NCBI GenBank assembly: GCA_902825945.1
Contig: CADECY010000008.1
Span: forward strand, 1 to 64,000
Reading direction: 5' to 3'
Length of the DNA stretch: 64,000 nucleotides
Source: an uncultured Acidobacteriota bacterium
Lineage (GTDB): Bacteria > Acidobacteriota > Terriglobia > Bryobacterales > Bryobacteraceae
Shown here: positions 6,029 through 18,752 of the stretch, piece after piece
Position numbering within the stretch: the first letter of the stretch is position 1
Layout: each line of letters begins with the position of its first letter
Position numbers and translations under genes: made by a program
Notes under the pieces: model-generated
Seen by the model: the letters and a program-made list of their open reading frames with translations, nothing else
The model's database searches: none
Told to the model about the DNA's origin: nothing

Positions 6029-6838
6029 CCGGCCGCAGGACCCGCTGGCCGAATTGGTGAAGATCGACCCGAAATCGATCGGTGCCGGCCAGTATCAGCA
6101 CGACGTCGATCAGAAGAGCTGCGTGAATCGCGTGGGCGTCGACCTGAACACGGCGTCGTGGGCGTTGCAGCGATGCGTGTTGGGCATCAACGAACGGACC
6201 GCGCTCGAGATCGTCGAGTATCGCAACCAGCACGGCCGCTTCCGTTCGCGCCAACAGTTGATGGAAGTGAGCGGATTCGCGGCGGCGAGAATCCGCTCGA
6301 CATGACGGCGGTCCATCCGGAGTCTTATCCGGTGGTCGAGAAGATCGCGGCCTCGCTCGGAATTGGCGTGCCCGATCTGATTGCCAAGCCGTCGGCATCC
6401 ATACGCTCTCCGGCATCATCGAGGAACCGCGCAATCCGGGACGCGGCCCGCGCGACCAGTTCGTCGCTCCCAAATGGCGCGACGATGTTCGCGAAATCGC
6501 CGACCTGAAACCCGAGATGGTGCTCGAAGGCGTCGTTACCAACTTCGTCGCGTTCATCGACCTCGGCGTGCATCAGGACCGGGCTCGTTCACGTAAGCGA
6601 GGTTTCGCACCGCTTCATCAAGGATCCGCGCGAGGTGCTGAAGGCTGGACAGATCGTGAAGGTGAAGGTTCTGGCCGTGGATCCGAAAGCGAAGCGTATC
6701 GGGCTCTCGATCAAACAACTGAAAGCGGCGCCACAGCAGCAGGCGACCAAGGGCGGCAAGCCACCGCAGCGGCGGCCGGAACCCGCACAGAAAAAGGGCC
6801 ACTCTCGAGGATCAGCTCGCGGCGCTGAACGCCCAATC
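6029..6838 (+). pseudogene. Decayed 3' copy of tex (helix-hairpin-helix and S1 region)
   Basis: This stretch aligns by eye, base for base over long runs, with bases about 11248-12180 of the intact tex gene on the same strand. Readable pieces include [52 protein letters not shown] and VKVKVLAVDPKAKRIGLSIKQ. Several deletions separate the blocks. One removes about 11 codons after DVDQK, one falls in the segment after VSGF, and one falls after the IAKP-equivalent. Frames are also broken around the S1 start. The first two-thirds of tex is absent and no start codon remains, so no functional Tex can be made. The copy lies 3 kb upstream of its parent, with the padR/permease pair between them. Confidence 0.9.
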
Positions 6839-9483: not shown

Positions 9484-9813
9484 TCACGCCATCTTCAGGA
9501 CCGCGAGCGTCGCCTTCGACAGCCGCTGATACTCGGCCATTTCCGCATCGAGTTGCTTGATTCCCGCCGCCGTGATCCGGTACACCCGGACCTTGCGATT
9601 GGTCTCCGATATCGTCCACTCGGCCTTCACCCAGCCCTTGATCATCACCTTCTGCAGGGCCGGATACAGCGAGCCCTCCTCGACGGCGAGTTCGTCCTCG
9701 GAAAGCTGGTGAATCCGTTGCGCGATCGCGTATCCATGGAGCGGTCCGCCGCGAAGTACGCGCAATACCAGCATGGCGAGTGTGCCGGGAATCAGGCCAG
9801 CTTCTCTAGGCAT
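9484..9813 (-). CDS. PadR-family winged-helix transcriptional regulator
   Basis: A 109-residue protein with PadR features: GTLAMLVLRVLRGGPLHGYAI (10-30), EEGSLYPALQKVMIKGW with the winged helix-turn-helix, and KVRVYRITAAGIKQL. PadR proteins are usually ligand-responsive repressors of adjacent transporter genes. The stop is two bases before the permease ATG, so this is a classic padR-ADOP pair. The start codon (ATG at 9811-9813) lies inside a 27-bp inverted repeat, which suggests autoregulation at the start of the transcript. Confidence 0.95.
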   Translation of the reverse strand: MPREAGLIPGTLAMLVLRVLRGGPLHGYAIAQRIHQLSEDELAVEEGSLYPALQKVMIKGWVKAEWTISETNRKVRVYRITAAGIKQLDAEMAEYQRLSKATLAVLKMA

Positions 9814-9831
9814 AGAATATCTATGCCTAGA
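9805..9831. promoter_or_regulatory. Inverted repeat, probable PadR operator spanning the padR start codon
   Basis: Arms TCTAGGCATAGA (9805-9816) and TCTATGCCTAGA (9820-9831) are perfect 12-bp complements around a 3-base centre ATA. The repeat is AT-richer than its surroundings. It covers the padR start codon, while tex starts 74 bp away on the other strand. Its symmetry and position fit a dimeric regulator such as PadR binding here and controlling its own operon, and perhaps tex. Confidence 0.7.
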
Positions 9832-9904
9832 ATACGCAAATGGGGCCGTCCGTGCAACAGGAATCTTCGTCCAGTCCTCGCTATCATGGAAGACTCTCCT
9901 CCGT

Positions 9905-12196
9905 ATGGATTCTCCCCGCCCCCTTTCGACACCGATTCTCTTTCACATTTCCCAAGACGCTTCGATCCCGCTAAAGAGCTTGGTCGCCACCATCGAACTG
10001 CTCGATGGCGGTGGAACCGTTCCCTTCATCGCGCGGTACCGCAAGGAGGCGACCGGCAATCTCGACGAAGTCCAGATCCGCACCGTTCAGGAAAAGCTCG
10101 AGTACTTCCGCGAACTGGAAGACCGCCGCGAAACGATCCTGAATTCGATCCAGGAACAAGGCAAACTAACGCCGGAACTGAAGTCGCGCATCGAGTCCTG
10201 CCTCGACAAGACCGGACTAGAGGACCTCTACCTTCCCTACAAGCCGAAGCGCCGCACGAAAGCCACGATCGCGCGCGAGAAGGGCCTCGAACCTCTCGCG
10301 CTCTACATCTGGAATCAGCAGCCGGCGGAATACTCGCTCGAGTCGTTCGCTGCCACCTTCGTCGATCCAGCCAAGGAAGTGAACACGGTCGAAGAGGCGC
10401 TCGAAGGCGCCCGCCACATCGTCGCGGAAACGATCAATGAGGACGCGGACCTGCGCAAGATGGTCCGCAAGATGATGCACGACGAAGGCCACGTGGTGGC
10501 TCGCGCGATCGAAGGCGTCGAGGATCCCGAAGGCAAGTACAAGATGTACGCTGATTATCGCGAGCCCGCGTCGAAGATCCCGTCGCACCGCATGCTCGCG
10601 ATCCGCCGCGGCGCCAAGGAAGGCTTCCTCACGTTTTCGATCGACCTCGATCGCGACCGCGCGGTCCTGATGCTCAAAGGTAAGGTGATCAAGGCGCCGG
10701 GCGATTGGCAGCCCCAGATCGACGCCGCGGCCGAGGATTGCTATGACCGCCTGCTGAACCTCTCGATCCAGACCGAAGTCCGGCTCGAACTGAAGGATCG
10801 TTCCGACGAGGAGGCGATCAAGGTATTCCGCGAGAACATCGAGAACCTGCTGCTCGCACCGCCCGCGGGCATGTTGAGCGTGCTCGCGATCGATCCCGGC
10901 ATCCGCACCGGATGCAAGGTCGCGGTGGTGGATGACACCGGCAAGTTCCTCGAAAACTCGGTCATCTATCCGTTCGAACCGAGGAACGATCTCGCGGGCT
11001 CGATCAAGACGCTCGCGAGTCTGATCGCCAAGCACAACACACGCGCCATCGCGATCGGCAATGGAACCGCGTCGCGCGAGACGCAGGCGCTCGTGAATGA
11101 TTTTCTGCGGCAGGCGAACCTGCACGATGTCTTCAGCGTTTCGGTGAACGAGTCGGGTGCGTCTGTCTATTCAGCCTCGGACATCGCGCGACAGGAGTTC
11201 CCGGACCTCGATCTCACGGTTCGCGGCGCGATCTCGATTGCGCGCCGGCTCCAGGATCCGCTCGCCGAGCTCGTGAAGATTGACCCCAAGTCGATCGGCG
11301 TCGGCCAGTATCAGCACGATGTCGACCAGAAGAAGCTGATGCAGAGTCTCGAAGGCAGCGTGGAAAGCTGCGTGAACCGCGTCGGCGTCGACCTCAACAC
11401 CGCCTCCTGGGCGCTTCTTCGCTACGTCTCCGGAATCAACGAGCGGACCGCGCTCAAGATCGTCGAGTATCGCAACCAGAACGGCCGATTCAAGTCGCGC
11501 CATCAGTTGATGGACGTGAGTGGATTCGGTCCGAAGACGTTCGAGCAATCCGCCGGATTCTTGCGCATCCGCGGCGGTGAGAATCCGCTCGACATGACGG
11601 CCGTGCATCCGGAGTCCTATCCGGTAGTCGAGAAGATCGCCGCGTCGCTGGGTATCAGCGTGCCCGAACTGATCGCCAAGCCGGACCTTGTCGAGAAGGT
11701 GAAGCTCGAGGGCTTCCAGACGGAGACGGTCGGCATCTACACCCTCTCCGATATCCGCGAGGAACTGCGCAAGCCCGGCCGTGATCCGCGCGACAAGTTC
11801 GTTGCGCCCAAGTGGCGCGATGACGTTCGCGAGATCGCCGACCTGAAGCCCGACATGGTCCTCGAAGGCGTCGTCACCAACGTCGCCAACTTCGGCGCGT
11901 TCGTCGATATCGGCGTGCACCAGGACGGGCTCGTCCATGTCAGTGAAGTTTCGCACCGCTTCATCAAGGATCCGCGCGAGGTGCTCAAGGTGGGTCAGAT
12001 CGTGAAAGTAAAGGTGCTCACCGTCGATCCGAAAGCCAAGCGCATCGGACTGACGATCAAGCAGCTCGAAGCCGCGCCACAGCAGCAGGCGATCAAGGGC
12101 GGCAAGCCACCGCAACGGCGGCCGGAGCCCGCGCAAGCCAAGCCGAGCCTCGAGGCCCAGCTCGCCGCGCTGAACGCCAAATTCCGCACGAAATGA
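9905..12196 (+). CDS. tex: Tex-family RNA-binding transcription accessory protein
   Basis: A 763-residue protein, close to the usual 770-790. The start at the ATG at 9905 gives MDSPRPLSTPILFHISQ; earlier in-frame codons are not family sequence. The order is an N-terminal helical Tex domain (GGTVPFIARYRKEATGNLDE), a YqgF/RNase H-like domain from about residue 325 (VLAIDPGIRTGCKVAVVDD), a helix-hairpin-helix part ([31 protein letters not shown]) and a C-terminal S1 domain at about 650-730 (FGAFVDIGVHQDGLVHVSEVS). The tail is Lys/Gln-rich. Tex binds RNA and RNA polymerase and supports transcription in many bacteria. A decayed copy of its 3' part lies upstream. Confidence 0.97.
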   Translation: MDSPRPLSTPILFHISQDASIPLKSLVATIELLDGGGTVPFIARYRKEATGNLDEVQIRTVQEKLEYFRELEDRRETILNSIQEQGKLTPELKSRIESCLDKTGLEDLYLPYKPKRRTKATIAREKGLEPLALYIWNQQPAEYSLESFAATFVDPAKEVNTVEEALEGARHIVAETINEDADLRKMVRKMMHDEGHVVARAIEGVEDPEGKYKMYADYREPASKIPSHRMLAIRRGAKEGFLTFSIDLDRDRAVLMLKGKVIKAPGDWQPQIDAAAEDCYDRLLNLSIQTEVRLELKDRSDEEAIKVFRENIENLLLAPPAGMLSVLAIDPGIRTGCKVAVVDDTGKFLENSVIYPFEPRNDLAGSIKTLASLIAKHNTRAIAIGNGTASRETQALVNDFLRQANLHDVFSVSVNESGASVYSASDIARQEFPDLDLTVRGAISIARRLQDPLAELVKIDPKSIGVGQYQHDVDQKKLMQSLEGSVESCVNRVGVDLNTASWALLRYVSGINERTALKIVEYRNQNGRFKSRHQLMDVSGFGPKTFEQSAGFLRIRGGENPLDMTAVHPESYPVVEKIAASLGISVPELIAKPDLVEKVKLEGFQTETVGIYTLSDIREELRKPGRDPRDKFVAPKWRDDVREIADLKPDMVLEGVVTNVANFGAFVDIGVHQDGLVHVSEVSHRFIKDPREVLKVGQIVKVKVLTVDPKAKRIGLTIKQLEAAPQQQAIKGGKPPQRRPEPAQAKPSLEAQLAALNAKFRTK

Positions 12197-12328: not shown

Positions 12329-15300
12329 ATGCGGAGCCATAGCCGTTTTTTCCCGCGGTTTACCGATCGTCGAGTTGCCGAAGCGGCATTCGCGTCCGTC
12401 ACGGTTTCGGAGGATCCGATTCCCGCCTTCGATCCACCGCTCGAACCGAGGGACGAGGCAGTCTTTCTCTTGCAGGTAGCGGCGGAGGTGGAACACGCGC
12501 TGATGGCGCAGTACCTGTACGCCGCGTACTCGCTCGATGCGGCGCACCCGCAAGGCGGAGTGTGGCGCAATTCGATCCTGCAGGTGGCGCGAGAAGAGAT
12601 GGGGCACCTGCTGACAGTGCAGAACCTGCTGCTGGCGATCGGTGGCCCCGTGTTTCTGGAGCGGGACCTGTATCCTTTCGAGTCGCGCGTGTATCCGATC
12701 CCGTTCGAACTGAAAAAAGCTTGCCGGGAGACGATCGGCTTCTACGTGCTCGCGGAGATGCCCGGTCGCGACCAGTTGACGCCGGAAGAAGCGGCCACGG
12801 TCGATGAGATCATCCAACTGCTCGATTTGCCGGGCGGCCGGGTTGTCAACCGCGTCGGAAAACTGTACACGCGGCTGATCGGCCTGGTGGGTGCGCTTTC
12901 GCCAACCGATTTTGTCAACGAGGCGGGTGATTATCAGGCGAGCGGCGCCGACTGGCTGGCCGGCCCCTTCTCGCTGATCGTGCCTCCGGTGACCAATCGG
13001 GAACAGGCCGTCGCGGCGTTGCACGCAATCGGTGTTCAAGGCGAAGGAGAGCAGAGGCAGCCGGAGCTGAATGCTCATTTCGACCGCTTCCTGGCCATCT
13101 ATCGCGGATTGACAGCTTCCGGCAGTGCTGTCCCCGTTCATGCCGTTGCGGACAATCCCCATGTTCCGGCGTTGAGCGGCGACTCAGGCGCCTCCGCCAT
13201 TACACACCCCGAATCGCGCCGTTGGGCGCAACTCGGCAATTTGCGCTACCGGTTACTGCTGCAGTTCATCTCGCATCATCTGAGTCTGCGCCGGACAATC
13301 GACTTGGCGGGGCGGAACACACTTCGGGACTGGGCGCTCGGCGAGATGCGCGGGGTCGCCGCAGTCGCGGCGAAACTGACCACTCTGCCTCTCGACAGCT
13401 CAGGCGGCACGGCTCGGGCCGGAATGCCTTTCGACATGCCGTACTCGCTTGCGCTGCCCGACGAGGAGAGTCAGCGTTGGCGAAGTCACCTCGACGTGCT
13501 GCGGGCCGCTTCGCGTTTGATGGATCAAATCGGCGAGGTGCCGGAACTGGCTGCTTTGCGAGCACTGACTCGGGCGCAACTCACGGAGCTCGAGCGCCGG
13601 GCGGGCAAGATACTCGCGATTCAGGAGATCCGGCTGCTGCCGCCGCTCGCGATCGGGCGGCTTGGCTCGTCGGGGGCCAACACCGCGGCGGAATACCCGG
13701 ACGTGATGGACAACTACGCCGCGTTGCTCCCGGACCAACCGGCGGATTTCCGGACCTTGGCTCCGGCGGAGACGTTGCGCGTGGATGTAGCGACGGGTCG
13801 CGTGACCGCCGCGGAAACACCGGCGCAAGTCCGGTTTCGCGGCGCGGATGGGCGAATTCGTCCTGTTGCGCCCTTCTTTGAAGTCTGGGCCCGATTCACC
13901 GAAGAGGGAATGCTGCAACCTCTCACGAGTCGGCATCTCGAGATGCTGGGGCTGACGGCGCAGTCGGTGCGGTGGAGTGTCCGGGCGGCGAACCTGAAGG
14001 CGTACCGGCGCACAGGCGACGAAGGCGACCGGATCAGCGCATCGATCGCCAATTTCAACGATCACTCACTGCGTCCGCTGACCGGCACCGCAGCCAATTT
14101 CCTCACGGGGCGTTCGATTCCCCTCGGTTGGATCCAGTACCTGCAACCCACCGAGGAGTTCCCGGAAATCCGCGCGCGGTTCACGCCGGGGCTGGGGCGC
14201 GTGTATGGAGCCTCGCAGGATTTCGAGGAAATTCAGGTTGTTTACAATTCGCAGGTGGGGTCATGGGACACCCGCAACGACCAGGACGCGACTGTGGACA
14301 CCTCTCCGGTAGCGCGTTCGCGCCGCCGCACTTCGCCGGTGCTGATTTATGCGCGCCAGGAATCCGGGCCCAACGAGGGCCAATCGCTCGGCTATCTTGA
14401 CGACACCTGCGACGGAATTCTCGAGGTGTCGCTCGATCATGGCGGCCGGACGCTTCGCGCCATGTCGCGATTTTCGAGCGGGCCGCCGGACTTTGCGCCG
14501 GATTCGTTCCACGTACGGACGGTGCAGGACGATCTGCTACAGATGGCACAGGGCCCGTCACCGCAAGCCGCCGTCGCCGAGCCGGAATTGGCGGATCACG
14601 TGATCGATGTTCTGCGGCGCGCGGTCGAAACGGTTCGGCTGATGGACACCGATCTGTGGAACCGGCGCTACTCCGCGAATGCGTTTCCGGCTGCAAGGGT
14701 GCGCTACTTCACGGTTCGCGGAATCCACGAGGGCGTGTTGACGTCGCTCCAGGGGCTGAAGGAGCCTGCCGGCTCGCCAGGAAGGCTCGGGGCCGTGGCC
14801 GCCCTGCGCCGCGTGGCCGCGATGCTGCGGCCGTTCGATCGGGACCGGATTGACTTCACCGCCGCTGGCCGGCAACGAATGCCTGCCATGATGCGCGGGG
14901 CAAACGGCCTGGACTTGGTGTTGAGCCGGCGGCAGATGGCGCTGATCGACCGGGCGATCGAGGTTTTCTCCGCCGCGGGGCCGAGTCCCGGCGAAACGCC
15001 AGAGAGCCGCATGCTCCGCATGATCTCGACATTCTCGGGATTCTCCGGGCTCCATGGGGCGTTTTCCGTTCCCGGCGGCCCGCCCCTGAGCGCGCGATTC
15101 TCCGATCCACCGGAAGTGCTCGAGTACCTGCGTTCGGCACCGGCGCAAGGCTCCGTTGCCGGACAGCTGGGCTTGACCGGACGCCCGCTGGTGGCTCGAG
15201 GACAGCCGGACCAGTCCGCGTTCGTCAGCCTGATCAGCAACGCGGCACATCCGATGAACCCGCGGTTCCTCTCCTATAGCGACGAGGGCCGCGATGGCAT

Positions 15301-15343
15301 TCAAATCGTGCGGGAATGGATCACGTCTCTGGGGGTGAGCTGA
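12329..15343 (+). CDS. Ferritin-like (VioB-type) domain protein fused to a LodA-like N-terminal region (protein A)
   Basis: A 1004-residue protein. The ATG at 12329 is chosen for the AGGAGG seven bases upstream. Residues 40-260 resemble the ferritin-like iminophenyl-pyruvate dimer synthase domain of VioB/RebD/StaD, with likely metal ligands in AEVEHALMAQYLYA (Glu55, His56) and REEMGHLLTVQN (Glu90, His93). From about residue 425 the sequence resembles the N-terminal beta-sandwich half of LodA/GoxA quinoprotein oxidases (IRLLPPLAIGRLGSSG, VRWSVRAANLKAY, GYLDDTCDGILEVSL, GPPDFAPDSF). The last 240 residues are not recognised. No signal peptide is visible. The LodA-like assignment is by remembered motifs, not by alignment. 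Protein B, one base downstream, would supply the missing C-terminal LodA part. Confidence 0.75.
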   Translation: MRSHSRFFPRFTDRRVAEAAFASVTVSEDPIPAFDPPLEPRDEAVFLLQVAAEVEHALMAQYLYAAYSLDAAHPQGGVWRNSILQVAREEMGHLLTVQNLLLAIGGPVFLERDLYPFESRVYPIPFELKKACRETIGFYVLAEMPGRDQLTPEEAATVDEIIQLLDLPGGRVVNRVGKLYTRLIGLVGALSPTDFVNEAGDYQASGADWLAGPFSLIVPPVTNREQAVAALHAIGVQGEGEQRQPELNAHFDRFLAIYRGLTASGSAVPVHAVADNPHVPALSGDSGASAITHPESRRWAQLGNLRYRLLLQFISHHLSLRRTIDLAGRNTLRDWALGEMRGVAAVAAKLTTLPLDSSGGTARAGMPFDMPYSLALPDEESQRWRSHLDVLRAASRLMDQIGEVPELAALRALTRAQLTELERRAGKILAIQEIRLLPPLAIGRLGSSGANTAAEYPDVMDNYAALLPDQPADFRTLAPAETLRVDVATGRVTAAETPAQVRFRGADGRIRPVAPFFEVWARFTEEGMLQPLTSRHLEMLGLTAQSVRWSVRAANLKAYRRTGDEGDRISASIANFNDHSLRPLTGTAANFLTGRSIPLGWIQYLQPTEEFPEIRARFTPGLGRVYGASQDFEEIQVVYNSQVGSWDTRNDQDATVDTSPVARSRRRTSPVLIYARQESGPNEGQSLGYLDDTCDGILEVSLDHGGRTLRAMSRFSSGPPDFAPDSFHVRTVQDDLLQMAQGPSPQAAVAEPELADHVIDVLRRAVETVRLMDTDLWNRRYSANAFPAARVRYFTVRGIHEGVLTSLQGLKEPAGSPGRLGAVAALRRVAAMLRPFDRDRIDFTAAGRQRMPAMMRGANGLDLVLSRRQMALIDRAIEVFSAAGPSPGETPESRMLRMISTFSGFSGLHGAFSVPGGPPLSARFSDPPEVLEYLRSAPAQGSVAGQLGLTGRPLVARGQPDQSAFVSLISNAAHPMNPRFLSYSDEGRDGIQIVREWITSLGVS

Positions 15344-15344
15344 C

Positions 15345-16118
15345 ATGCCGAATCCGATCGAACCGAAGAATCGCACCGCGCAACTTGCGTACACTGCCCG
15401 CGGGAATCCGCCGGCGGTCAGCCCGGCGGCGGCAATCTCGAACTGCTTTCCAGGGCTGGAATTCGACTTTCGAAACATCTGGAAGAATCTGTTCGAGGGA
15501 GTGGAGACGCACGAGGCCGGTGAGGGTGTACATATCGTGCTGGGCGTCAGCCCGGGTTCCGATGCGGCCACGGCTGGGGTGACCGCGTTCGACATCCTGG
15601 TGGCCGTCGATGACTTGGCTGTCAACGCCCAGCGGACGCGGCCGAACGGGACCCCAGGCCCCCTTTCCGCGTTGGAGTGGTCGAACGCCGTCGTGGACAT
15701 CCTCGCCAAGGCGGGCACGGAAGCCCGTGCGCGTTGCACATTTTTCAATCCCGATACCCAACAGCAGATCGATGCAAGTCTCCGCGTGCGGCCGGTGTTC
15801 GACGGCGACTCCGCCACCCTAGCGGAAGTGCTGGCGGAGCCGGGTGCTCTTACCCAGAGCCTGTGTTCGCCGTGGCAGGCCGACTACCGGGAATGCGGAT
15901 GCTTCTACTGGTCGGCGAGTCGGCCGGATTTCGTCAACGTCACCGCCGACGCGCAAGGCAACGCTCGCGGGCACAATTGGATGCAGCGCGACAAATCCCC
16001 CGGAGCGGCCTATTCGCCCGATAATGTAGGCGACCCGGCGCAACTCGACTACATCGACCTGTACAGGAACTGGGAGCAGGCCCTTCGATTCGTGACCGGT
16101 GGGCGGACGGAAACCTGA
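15345..16118 (+). CDS. LodA/GoxA C-terminal-like protein, candidate tryptophylquinone-bearing subunit (protein B)
   Basis: A 257-residue protein that starts one base after the stop of protein A (TGACATG). Two segments recall the cofactor region of LodA-type oxidases: AISNCFPGLEFDFRN with Cys34, like the family's Cys followed by a Phe-Pro-Gly-(Ile/Leu)-Glu stretch, and LCSPWQADYRECGCFYW with Trp177 in Pro-Trp-Gln-Ala-Asp. In LodA a Cys and a Trp crosslink into cysteine tryptophylquinone. Between them lies a PDZ-like stretch (HIVLGVSPGSDAATAGVTAFDILVAV). Other cysteines are 131, 174, 184 and 186. No signal peptide is seen. The family call rests on motifs; the cofactor is inference, strengthened by the maturase genes downstream. 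Confidence 0.7.
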   Translation: MPNPIEPKNRTAQLAYTARGNPPAVSPAAAISNCFPGLEFDFRNIWKNLFEGVETHEAGEGVHIVLGVSPGSDAATAGVTAFDILVAVDDLAVNAQRTRPNGTPGPLSALEWSNAVVDILAKAGTEARARCTFFNPDTQQQIDASLRVRPVFDGDSATLAEVLAEPGALTQSLCSPWQADYRECGCFYWSASRPDFVNVTADAQGNARGHNWMQRDKSPGAAYSPDNVGDPAQLDYIDLYRNWEQALRFVTGGRTET

Positions 16119-17437
16119 TGCTGGTTCGAATCGCGCCTTCGGTGTCATCGCCGCCGCCGGCGCCGCCGAAACAGAAGGACTACCATCTGTTTGAAACGGA
16201 ACTCGGTAGCCATGTCTTGGCCGCTGATGGTTCGCGTGTCTACTCGATCGGGGCGGACACGGCGCGTGCTCTTGCAGCTGACCCGGATGAATTCGGCCGC
16301 CTGGGGCTCCAGCCGGACGCTCGTTACGTGGATGACACCGCGGTCGAGGATCCTCCATTGCGCGCGCTGTCCCTGGCCGTGGCGCAGAAGTGCAACCTCG
16401 GCTGCGTCTACTGCTACGCGTCGCGAGGAACATTCGGCGATGCCCCGCAAAACATGTCCCTCGAGGTGGCTCTGGCGGCTGTCGACCGGCTGTTCGAGGG
16501 AGCCAGCGCGGGCACCCGTCTGAATCTTTCTTTCCTCGGCGGTGAGCCGCTGGTGAACCGTGGGGTGCTTCGCGCGGCGGTGGAACACGCCACGCGCCGG
16601 GCGGCGGAGACTGGGGTGGTAGCCGGGTACTCGATCACAACGAACGGTACGCTGATCTCCGGGGACGACGGACAATTTTTCGAGTCCCACGGGTTCGCGG
16701 TGACGATTTCGATGGACGGGGCCGGAGCCGATCATGATCGGCTTCGCCCCTTTCAGGACGGTCGCGGATCCTACAGCCGGATTCTCGAGCGCGTGACGCC
16801 GCTTCTCGCGATGCAGCGGCGGATGCAAGTGTCGGCGCGCGTGACGGTGACCCCTTCCAATCTGGATCTCCGAGGGACGCTCGAAACGCTGCTCGGGCTC
16901 GGCTTTCATTCGGTGGGCTTTTCGCCGATGCTCGCCTCTCCTGGCGGAGCGGCGGAAATGGGCTCGGGCGATCTTTCGCTGATGCTCGAGCGAATGATCG
17001 AGTGTGGCCAGTCATTCGAACGGAGCATCGTGGCCGGGGAGCGCTTCGCGTTTTCGAACATGGCAACCGCCATGCGTGAGATCCACCGGGGAACCCACCG
17101 GCCGTATCCGTGTGGCGCGGGTGCCGGATACCTGGGCGTTTCCGCGACGGGCGAACTGGCGGCGTGCCATCGCTTTGTGGGAGACGCGGCTGGTGCGATG
17201 GGAAATCTCCGGGATGGCGTCGACTCTGTCCGTCAGAATGCCTGGTTGCGCGAGCGCCACGTCCACCTTCAGGAGCCGTGCAGTGGATGCTGGGCGCGTT
17301 ATCTTTGCGGCGGAGGATGTCATCACGAGGTGATCCACCGTGGCCGGCCTGCCTGCGACTACATTCGGGGCTGGCTGCACTATTGCCTGCAGGCGTATGT
17401 CCGGTTGTTGGATCGCCGGCCCGATTACTTTGACTGA
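16118..17437 (+). CDS. Radical SAM/SPASM protein, QhpD-like peptide maturase (protein C)
   Basis: A 439-residue protein whose ATG overlaps the stop of protein B (TGATG). The radical SAM CX3CX2C is Cys92, Cys96, Cys99 (KCNLGCVYCYASRG), with SFLGGEPLVN and STTNGT-type motifs following. The C-terminal SPASM motif is complete: Cys332, Cys350, then CX2CX5CX3C at 388, 391, 397, 401 (CSGCWARYLCGGGCHHE) and Cys413. The CWARYLCGGGCHHE signature is like QhpD, which installs thioether crosslinks in the small subunit of quinohemoprotein amine dehydrogenase. The likely substrate is protein A or B. It probably carries three iron-sulfur clusters and acts in the cytoplasm. Confidence 0.9.
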   Translation: MLVRIAPSVSSPPPAPPKQKDYHLFETELGSHVLAADGSRVYSIGADTARALAADPDEFGRLGLQPDARYVDDTAVEDPPLRALSLAVAQKCNLGCVYCYASRGTFGDAPQNMSLEVALAAVDRLFEGASAGTRLNLSFLGGEPLVNRGVLRAAVEHATRRAAETGVVAGYSITTNGTLISGDDGQFFESHGFAVTISMDGAGADHDRLRPFQDGRGSYSRILERVTPLLAMQRRMQVSARVTVTPSNLDLRGTLETLLGLGFHSVGFSPMLASPGGAAEMGSGDLSLMLERMIECGQSFERSIVAGERFAFSNMATAMREIHRGTHRPYPCGAGAGYLGVSATGELAACHRFVGDAAGAMGNLRDGVDSVRQNAWLRERHVHLQEPCSGCWARYLCGGGCHHEVIHRGRPACDYIRGWLHYCLQAYVRLLDRRPDYFD

Positions 17438-18752
17438 CGTTTGCGTGGTGGGCGCGGGTCCGGCTGGGTCCACCGCAGCCATGCTTCTGGCGCGGCTCGG
17501 ATACTCGGTGATCGTGCGGGAGAAGCAGACCTTTCCGAGAGCTCATGCCGGCGAATCGCTGCCTCCGAGCATCCTGCCGATTCTCGGCCGGCTCGGTGTG
17601 CGGGAAGCGGTCGAAGGGGCGGGGTTTCTGCGGCCGCGCGGAGCCCACGTATTGTGGAGCGGAGACAGCCCGGAGTGGGCCGGCACTTCGGGAGACCAGC
17701 CAGGATTCCAGGTCGACCGGGCGCGCTTCGATCAGATTTTGCTGGACGCCGCCATTGCCGCTGGAGCTCGCCTGCTTCCCGCGGCGAGTGCCGACTCGAT
17801 TGGGGCCGAAGCGCGCATGGCCGTCGATGCTTCCGGACGGCGGCGAGTCATGTCACCGCGCGCGGAGGCCTTCGCGCCTGAAACACTGGCGGTCTATGCG
17901 TATTGGAGGCAGCCCGAAGGGATGTCTCCGGAGACACTCGTGGAGGCGGGCACGCATCACTGGTACTGGGGCGCGCCTTTGCCGGATGGGACCTTCAACG
18001 CCACCGTTTTTGTCTCGCCGATTGAGTTCGCTGGGAGGTCTGCCGGAGAATTGTACGGAGCAAAGCTGCGGGAATCGATCCTGATGGGTCCGCACTGCCT
18101 CGAGCGCGTGTCGCCGATCCTCGTTTGCGACGCGACGCCGCGCGTTTGCTCCGCGCCCCTGGTGACGGCGAACCGGATCATGGCTGGCGAATCGGCGTTC
18201 TCAATCGATCCATTGTCGTCGCAAGGAGTGATGGCCGCGATGAGATCGGGGATCCACGCGGCTGCCGCGGTCCACACGATTCTCGCCCATGCCGATTGCG
18301 CGCTGGCGGCGGAGTTCATCGAGAGCCGCGCGCGGGCCACCGTTCGCTCACACGCCCGGCTGGCGGCGCGCGGATATCGCGATAGTGGAAGAGAATCCGC
18401 GTTCTGGCGGGAACGGAGTTCCTGCCGGTGGCCCGCGGTGGAAGCCGGGCCGATTCCTGGCCTCGATTCTTCCGTTACACTCGCCGAGGGCGTCGCATTG
18501 CGCGGAGTGCCCTTTCTTGCTGGCGACCGGATCGTGGCGGTCGATGGAATCGCTGGCGGTTCGCTCGAGGAGCCAATGGTCGAGTTGGGTGGACACTCAG
18601 TGGCTTCGCTGCTGCGTCCGGTTGCGAATCGGCCATGCAGCGCGCGAGACTTGCTTGAAATCTGGTCACGGCGGATGCCGGCCCGAGATGCGGTCCGGGT
18701 CTTCGAACACCTTTGGAAGGCCGGCGTGCTCGCTACTTCGCGTTGCGCATGA
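17397..18752 (+). CDS. FAD-dependent oxidoreductase, LodB/QhpG-like, halogenase fold (protein D)
   Basis: A 451-residue protein if started at the ATG at 17397. A TTG at 17430 overlapping the stop of protein C is an equally good start and puts the FAD motif VCVVGAGPAGST nearer the N-terminus. Other flavoprotein features are PRAHAGESLPPS, FQVDRARFDQILLDAA and SIDPLSSQGVMAAMRSG, the pattern of tryptophan-halogenase-like monooxygenases that includes LodB and QhpG. The C-terminus (VPFLAGDRIVAVDG, VELGGHSVASLL) resembles the LodB tail. LodB and QhpG oxidise a protein tryptophan during quinone cofactor formation, which fits this operon. The 3' end overlaps the convergent next gene by 20 bp. Confidence 0.85.
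   Translation: MSGCWIAGPITLTDVCVVGAGPAGSTAAMLLARLGYSVIVREKQTFPRAHAGESLPPSILPILGRLGVREAVEGAGFLRPRGAHVLWSGDSPEWAGTSGDQPGFQVDRARFDQILLDAAIAAGARLLPAASADSIGAEARMAVDASGRRRVMSPRAEAFAPETLAVYAYWRQPEGMSPETLVEAGTHHWYWGAPLPDGTFNATVFVSPIEFAGRSAGELYGAKLRESILMGPHCLERVSPILVCDATPRVCSAPLVTANRIMAGESAFSIDPLSSQGVMAAMRSGIHAAAAVHTILAHADCALAAEFIESRARATVRSHARLAARGYRDSGRESAFWRERSSCRWPAVEAGPIPGLDSSVTLAEGVALRGVPFLAGDRIVAVDGIAGGSLEEPMVELGGHSVASLLRPVANRPCSARDLLEIWSRRMPARDAVRVFEHLWKAGVLATSRCA

Follow-up and report, generated by a model that had tools for sequence, protein, structure and literature searches.

The stretch of DNA analyzed here, a window of 64,000 nucleotides from the genome of an uncultured Bryobacteraceae bacterium, carries a cassette of four consecutive genes, A-B-C-D, all on the plus strand and all with open frames. 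Our main reading, to which we give a probability of roughly 70%, is that A and B together form a cysteine tryptophylquinone (CTQ) oxidase of the LodA/GoxA fold which is matured by C, the presumed source of crosslinks, and by D, and that a putative di-iron domain in A acts on H2O2 or the imine. Protein A (12329-15343, 1004 amino acids) joins a VioB-type ferritin-like module to the N-terminal half of a LodA/GoxA-type protein and a helical extension, and protein B (15345-16118, 257 amino acids) is the C-terminal, cofactor half of such a protein with a tentatively PDZ-like insertion. Protein C (16118-17437, 439 amino acids) is a QhpD-like radical SAM/SPASM maturase and protein D (17397-18752, with an uncertain start in a frame open from 17340) is a QhpG-like FAD monooxygenase. 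A and B lie 1 nt apart, B and C overlap by 1 nt, and D overlaps C; no signal peptide was apparent by eye. Across 84,980 species genomes we found 79 loci of this kind.

The original prediction had described A as a fusion of a VioB-type ferritin-like domain to a LodA-like region; the frame is open and the fusion is real. Residues 36-427 (12434-13609) contain the PF12902 module followed by a second four-helix bundle. Pfam places PF12902 (Ferritin-like) at residues 48-259 with an E-value of 1e-32 (114 bits against a curated cut-off of 22.3), and profile comparison aligned A with the C-terminal half of VioB over 310 columns (E 1e-25). In the predicted model of full-length A (pLDDT 82.8, pTM 0.64), residues 36-369 match the solved PF12902 protein 3hl1 with a Z-score of 23.6 (rmsd 2.7, 253 residues), and residues 289-428 form the second bundle, which is bacterioferritin-like (Z about 16). 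Six residues (E55, E90, H93, E143, E239, and H250 in A numbering) are invariant in 38 of 38 aligned ferritin-like partners, and the ligand positions of A are also kept in VioB; these putative ligands make up a pattern that is probably suited to a di-iron site. E55, E90, and H93 had been named as likely ligands beforehand, together with H56, which is not invariant among the 38 relatives. Against the VioB equivalog model A scores 45 bits, far below the cut-off of 1250, and because it has no counterpart of the N-terminal half of VioB, bisindole chemistry is not implied. We also considered the N-terminal half of VioB as a hidden LodA homologue and rejected this, as it did not match a LodA-type profile (hhalign probability 0.3%). 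The helical extension at the end of A (residues 885-1004; 14981-15340) is found in a few relatives only, those with split genes. Its comparison with PDB profiles was empty, no member has the heme motif CxxCH in it, and one of eight members weakly matched PSCyt1 in Pfam (E 0.003), so it is possibly a heme-less cytochrome-c-like domain.

The region that had been taken for a LodA-like beta-sandwich is delimited here as residues 430-882 of A (13616-14974). The phrases quoted for this, LPPLAIGRLGSSG and YLDDTCDGILEVSL, are present in the region, and its likeness to LodA/GoxA is borne out by profile comparison and by the fold of a relative, but it is not a lone beta-sandwich: the LodA/GoxA-type part of A amounts to an N-terminal half, and the matching C-terminal half, which includes the cofactor site, is encoded by gene B. 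The Pfam model LodA_N matched A with an E-value of 0.009 (16.5 bits, below the cut-off of 26.3), and LodA_C matched B just above its cut-off (E 1.2e-5, 25.5 against 25); at the sequence level, the family profile matched LodA with an E-value of 2e-7 and GoxA with 6e-5. Both halves are present in a single chain of 700-800 residues in 38 of the 79 loci, and the LodA region of A corresponds by homology to the first 460 residues in these single-chain relatives. The same genome contains both arrangements. Its paralogue C23 is a single chain of 718 residues, the first part of which corresponds to A residues 417-887 and the C-terminal part to B, with the ferritin-like protein separately encoded upstream; in copy C208, A and B are split as in the window. 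For L020, a single-chain relative from a Bryobacteraceae genome, AlphaFold2 with a 58-row alignment produced a model (pLDDT 85.7, pTM 0.91) of which residues 5-718 matched LodA (3weu) with a Z-score of 16.8 over 436 residues (3.7 A) and GoxA entries with Z-scores of 15.5-16.1, compared to 3.8 for the best unrelated chain. Their homology to single chains such as L020 suggests that A and B of the window share the full-length LodA/GoxA fold. LodA was absent from the list returned by a fold search with the full model of A, which is filled by helical bundles; this is no counter-evidence, since the single-chain relative does match. Residues ~50-155 of B (15492-15809) form an insertion that we tentatively call PDZ-like: PDZ_6 matched B with an E-value of 0.016 (best at residues 64-93), the isolated region with 0.0046, and the best member of a 29-row alignment with 4e-9, Pfam matches occurred in few members only, and the comparison of the insertion with PDB profiles was empty.

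The predicted cofactor and crosslink motif of B spans residues 174-195 (15864-15929) and reads LCxPWQxDYxECxCxYWxxxRPD. An alignment of 83 B sequences shows C174, D180, C184, C186, Y188, W189, D195, and W243 to be invariant, and the motif is laid out as C174-x5-D180, then C184 and W189 as the predicted CTQ pair, and C186-x8-D195; these six motif residues are kept in four plasmid members as well. Both the gamma subunit of quinohemoprotein amine dehydrogenase (QHNDH; LC27QPMEAD33LYGC37SDPC41WW43PAQVPD49, 1jmx alignment) and the LodA counterpart (PWQADFxxC) are in register with B. In gamma, Cys27 and Asp33 are crosslinked. CTQ is made there from Cys37 and Trp43, and a further crosslink joins Cys41 and Asp49 (PMC7876137). 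The common register points to C184 and W189 as the CTQ pair of B and to D180 as its active-site Asp, with C174 and C186 as extra cysteines. Because we know of no characterized protein of the A/B cassette family, the CTQ and the Cys-Asp crosslinks are predicted in B from alignment. We rejected W212 as the cofactor Trp because it is lost in Nostoc, and also W243, though invariant, because W189 is in register with the Trp of WWPAQRPD in canonical LodA and with Trp43 of QhpC.

Both extra cysteines are present in 87 of 87 cassette members (83 aligned and four from plasmids), but neither position is a cysteine in any of 21 canonical LodA/GoxA proteins, which come from plasmids and from the same phylum. 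The 21 canonical loci also have no QhpD-like gene at family strength, the best hit being a distant radical SAM protein (L141, E 9e-14). The genome scan used two peptide patterns, one of them containing C174, so that selection accounts in part for the constancy of C174 across the 79 loci, whereas C186, C184, W189, D180, and D195 are free of this effect. The four plasmid members, which were found by tblastn with no motif pattern, have both extra cysteines and a QhpD-like gene. The QH-AmDH_gamma model matched B weakly (E 0.034). Two of the three crosslink pairs of gamma have counterparts, C174-D180 and C186-D195, the latter with a spacing of x8 compared to x7 in QhpC; no counterpart of the third, N-terminal pair was found in B.

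The best family for C is QhpD (TIGR03906; E 1.3e-93), although its 314 bits fall short of the 453 required by the equivalog model, and D is nearest to QhpG (NF049967; E 2e-67, 227.9 bits, below the equivalog cut-off of 240), with 7ctq among its PDB matches. Homologues of C and of D each follow B in 78 of the 79 loci, the exception (L058) being a locus that stops at a contig edge. In the relatives tested from other phyla, too, C and D had QhpD and QhpG as their top families, except for one Nostoc D with no match at the cut used. The orthologues of D from Bacteroidota and Burkholderia exceed the QhpG cut-off with 306 and 296. This NCBIfam equivalog model captures D proteins of the cassette (L028 11180-12655, L054 11236-12774), and public 'QhpG' annotations may therefore mark the cassette rather than QHNDH. 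Of 13 cassette genomes, 11, that of the window included, lack the heme domain of the QHNDH alpha subunit (PF09098), which indicates that the maturases are not simply those of a QHNDH. We considered QHNDH alpha and beta subunits acting in trans with C and D and rejected this, as the alpha heme domain is not in the window's genome. In this genome a single C stands against three copies of B, all of which it may therefore serve.

A PF12902 partner is encoded on the same strand or fused in 74 of the 79 loci, and two of the remaining five are cut by the start of a contig. Fusion to the LodA N-terminal half as in the window occurs in two of the 79 loci, and fusion to the end of B in Nostoc (two of 79) and in Streptomyces. 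In two cassettes, those of Streptomyces purpureus (L019) and Competibacter (L015), the examined DNA contains no PF12902 gene, which argues that the partner is not strictly needed in cis. No heme motif was found in A, B, or the ferritin-like partners. Many partners begin with a short conserved peptide containing R[HYF]L (41 of 73 with a Met start, e.g. L022:6090 and L069:5966), possibly a docking signal. On rhizobial plasmids the partner is a protein with a BNR/YCF48-type propeller, FlgD-Ig, and PF12902, encoded divergently from the cassette (L127 8995-11748, L129 4126-6936). PF12902 genes also lie beside some canonical LodA genes, in the window's genome (C32), in two further genomes from its phylum and in Azospirillum, and fungal and bacterial LodA loci with such a neighbor have been reported (PMC4417212), whereas most canonical LodA/GoxA loci examined have none adjacent. 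It is thus the LodA-type protein, and not the radical-SAM route, with which PF12902 genes are associated.

The cassette occurs in at least nine phyla (Acidobacteriota, Bacteroidota, Pseudomonadota, Myxococcota, Planctomycetota, Verrucomicrobiota, Actinomycetota, Chloroflexota, and Cyanobacteriota). The three B copies of the window's genome belong to three different clades, and the nearest relative of the window copy is a Phycisphaerales protein with 61% identity. In RefSeq, A and B go by 'hypothetical protein', and D is called either 'tryptophan 7-halogenase' or 'FAD-dependent monooxygenase'; public annotation does not name A or B as LodA/GoxA, and we found no description of the cassette in the open-access literature. 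On plasmids of Bradyrhizobium barranii and Mycetohabitans endofungorum the cassette lies ~10 kb from a canonical LodA/GoxA gene (L127 13992-26653, L128 2859-17783). The window's genome also has a canonical ferritin-LodA-LodB operon (L107 3547-7951, contig C32), in which the LodA and LodB frames are broken, either as pseudogenes or through assembly errors. Elsewhere in the window, the 3' part of the tex-like RNA-binding gene at 9773-12196 recurs in degenerate form at 6029-6837, with broken frames and 72.7% identity over 940 columns.

In the mechanism that we propose, with a maturation order inferred from QHNDH (PMC7876137), the radical-SAM protein C would first form the Cys-to-Asp thioethers C174-D180 and C186-D195 in B, as QhpD does in QhpC. 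The QhpG-like D would next dihydroxylate W189, oxidation of the ring and formation of the Cys184-Trp189 bond would give CTQ, and B would assemble with A. Mature A and B would then convert a primary amine or amino acid to the imine and O2 to H2O2, as LodA and GoxA do, and the fused VioB-type di-iron domain, situated next to the active site, would act on the H2O2, the imine, or both. In the violacein pathway, VioB follows VioA, an amino-acid oxidase that yields an imine and H2O2, and it is by analogy with this succession that we assign the imine or H2O2 to the ferritin-like module. This is the least certain step of the mechanism, although the module probably has this role rather than one in cofactor building. 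More speculatively, and with considerable doubt on our part, A and B might represent a widespread, undescribed class of two-center enzymes, in which a protein of LodA/GoxA fold, its CTQ loop held by thioether staples from a radical-SAM protein, is coupled to a VioB-type di-iron domain that uses H2O2 from the quinone site for a second oxidation of the nascent imine, a self-contained equivalent of the VioA-VioB pair.

The original prediction had linked a metal-dependent oxidation to tryptophan chemistry, either in building the cofactor or in the reaction of the enzyme. The link to tryptophan stands insofar as the LodA half belongs to a protein of CTQ type, but a need for the metal domain in building the cofactor is not supported, because CTQ arises in LodA, GoxA, and QHNDH in the absence of such a domain and the cassette brings its own maturases, C and D; a role in the reaction, on H2O2 or the imine, is by analogy the likelier of the two. 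That an O2-activating di-iron center carries out the first Trp hydroxylation or oxidizes a precursor to the quinone is an unlikely alternative for which there are nevertheless several arguments: the near-constant linkage of the domain to the CTQ half (74 of 79 loci), its fusion to either half, the invariant di-iron-type ligands, and the last oxidation step in QHNDH, for which the alpha-subunit hemes are considered necessary (PMC7876137), so that another oxidant could be needed in a cassette without hemes. However, QhpG alone adds both oxygens to the Trp of QhpC (PMC7876137), most of the canonical LodA/GoxA loci examined have no adjacent PF12902 gene, and two cassettes lack it in cis. The fold of A and B, which is that of the O2-using LodA and GoxA, and the PF12902 neighbors of some canonical LodA-type loci make it likewise improbable that A and B are a dehydrogenase whose di-iron domain accepts electrons in place of the QHNDH hemes, even though the other known case of QhpD/QhpG-type maturation is a dehydrogenase, heme motifs are missing from A, B, and the ferritin partners, and the ferritin-like domain is fused to quinoprotein halves.

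Two further explanations deny that A and B are an enzyme or a working one. B could be a RiPP-like precursor that releases its modified part, with A as a dedicated binder, given that the maturases are similar to PapB and SCIFF types and that B is often a separate small protein. We consider this very unlikely, because in 38 of the 79 loci the motif lies inside a chain of 700-800 residues with the LodA/GoxA fold, which matches end to end, and because neither a QhpE-like protease nor an exporter is a constant neighbor in the annotated regions viewed. The broken frames of the canonical ferritin-LodA-LodB operon in the same metagenome-assembled genome could suggest that A and B are a degenerate, non-functional LodA relative too, but A to D are open, tightly coupled, and have every conserved residue, and the three B copies fall into three clades; we give this explanation hardly any weight.

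We thus favor an oxidase matured by C and D, and this reading can be set against known systems. Two routes to CTQ are known, that of LodA/GoxA with a flavoprotein only, and that of QHNDH with a radical SAM protein, a flavoprotein, and a small crosslinked subunit. With LodA and GoxA (L-lysine 6-oxidase and glycine oxidase; PF17990 and PF18417), the cassette has in common the full-length fold, the PWQxD..C signature with the active-site Asp, a Trp five residues after the Cys in several canonical members, and an adjacent flavoprotein maturase gene. It departs from them in the frequent split into two genes, in two additional invariant cysteines and a PDZ-like insertion, and in being accompanied by a QhpD-like gene and a ferritin-like partner. 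With QHNDH (QhpABC, QhpD, QhpG) it shares radical-SAM and FAD maturases of the QhpD and QhpG kinds and a similar cofactor-loop sequence, in which two of the three pairs of crosslink cysteine and acceptor residue have counterparts, but in the cassette the loop is placed in a LodA/GoxA fold, there is no separate small gamma peptide, A and B have no hemes, and 11 of 13 genomes have no alpha heme subunit. The C-terminal half of VioB (iminophenylpyruvate dimer synthase) and CC_0557 (3hl1) are homologous to the ferritin-like module of A, with the same ligand positions, whereas the N-terminal half of VioB is unrelated to LodA and missing from A. The loci in PMC4417212 show the same pairing of a LodA-type quinoprotein with PF12902, but there a canonical LodA is accompanied by LodB and unfused, and the text mentions no radical-SAM gene. 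The cassette offers a lead on many proteins that annotation now calls 'tryptophan 7-halogenase' or simply 'hypothetical protein'. It also points to a role that could be tested for VioB-type ferritin-like domains, and makes the purpose of thioether staples testable in a heme-free enzyme. By combining the LodA/GoxA fold with maturation of the QHNDH type, it suggests how the two routes to CTQ relate to each other.
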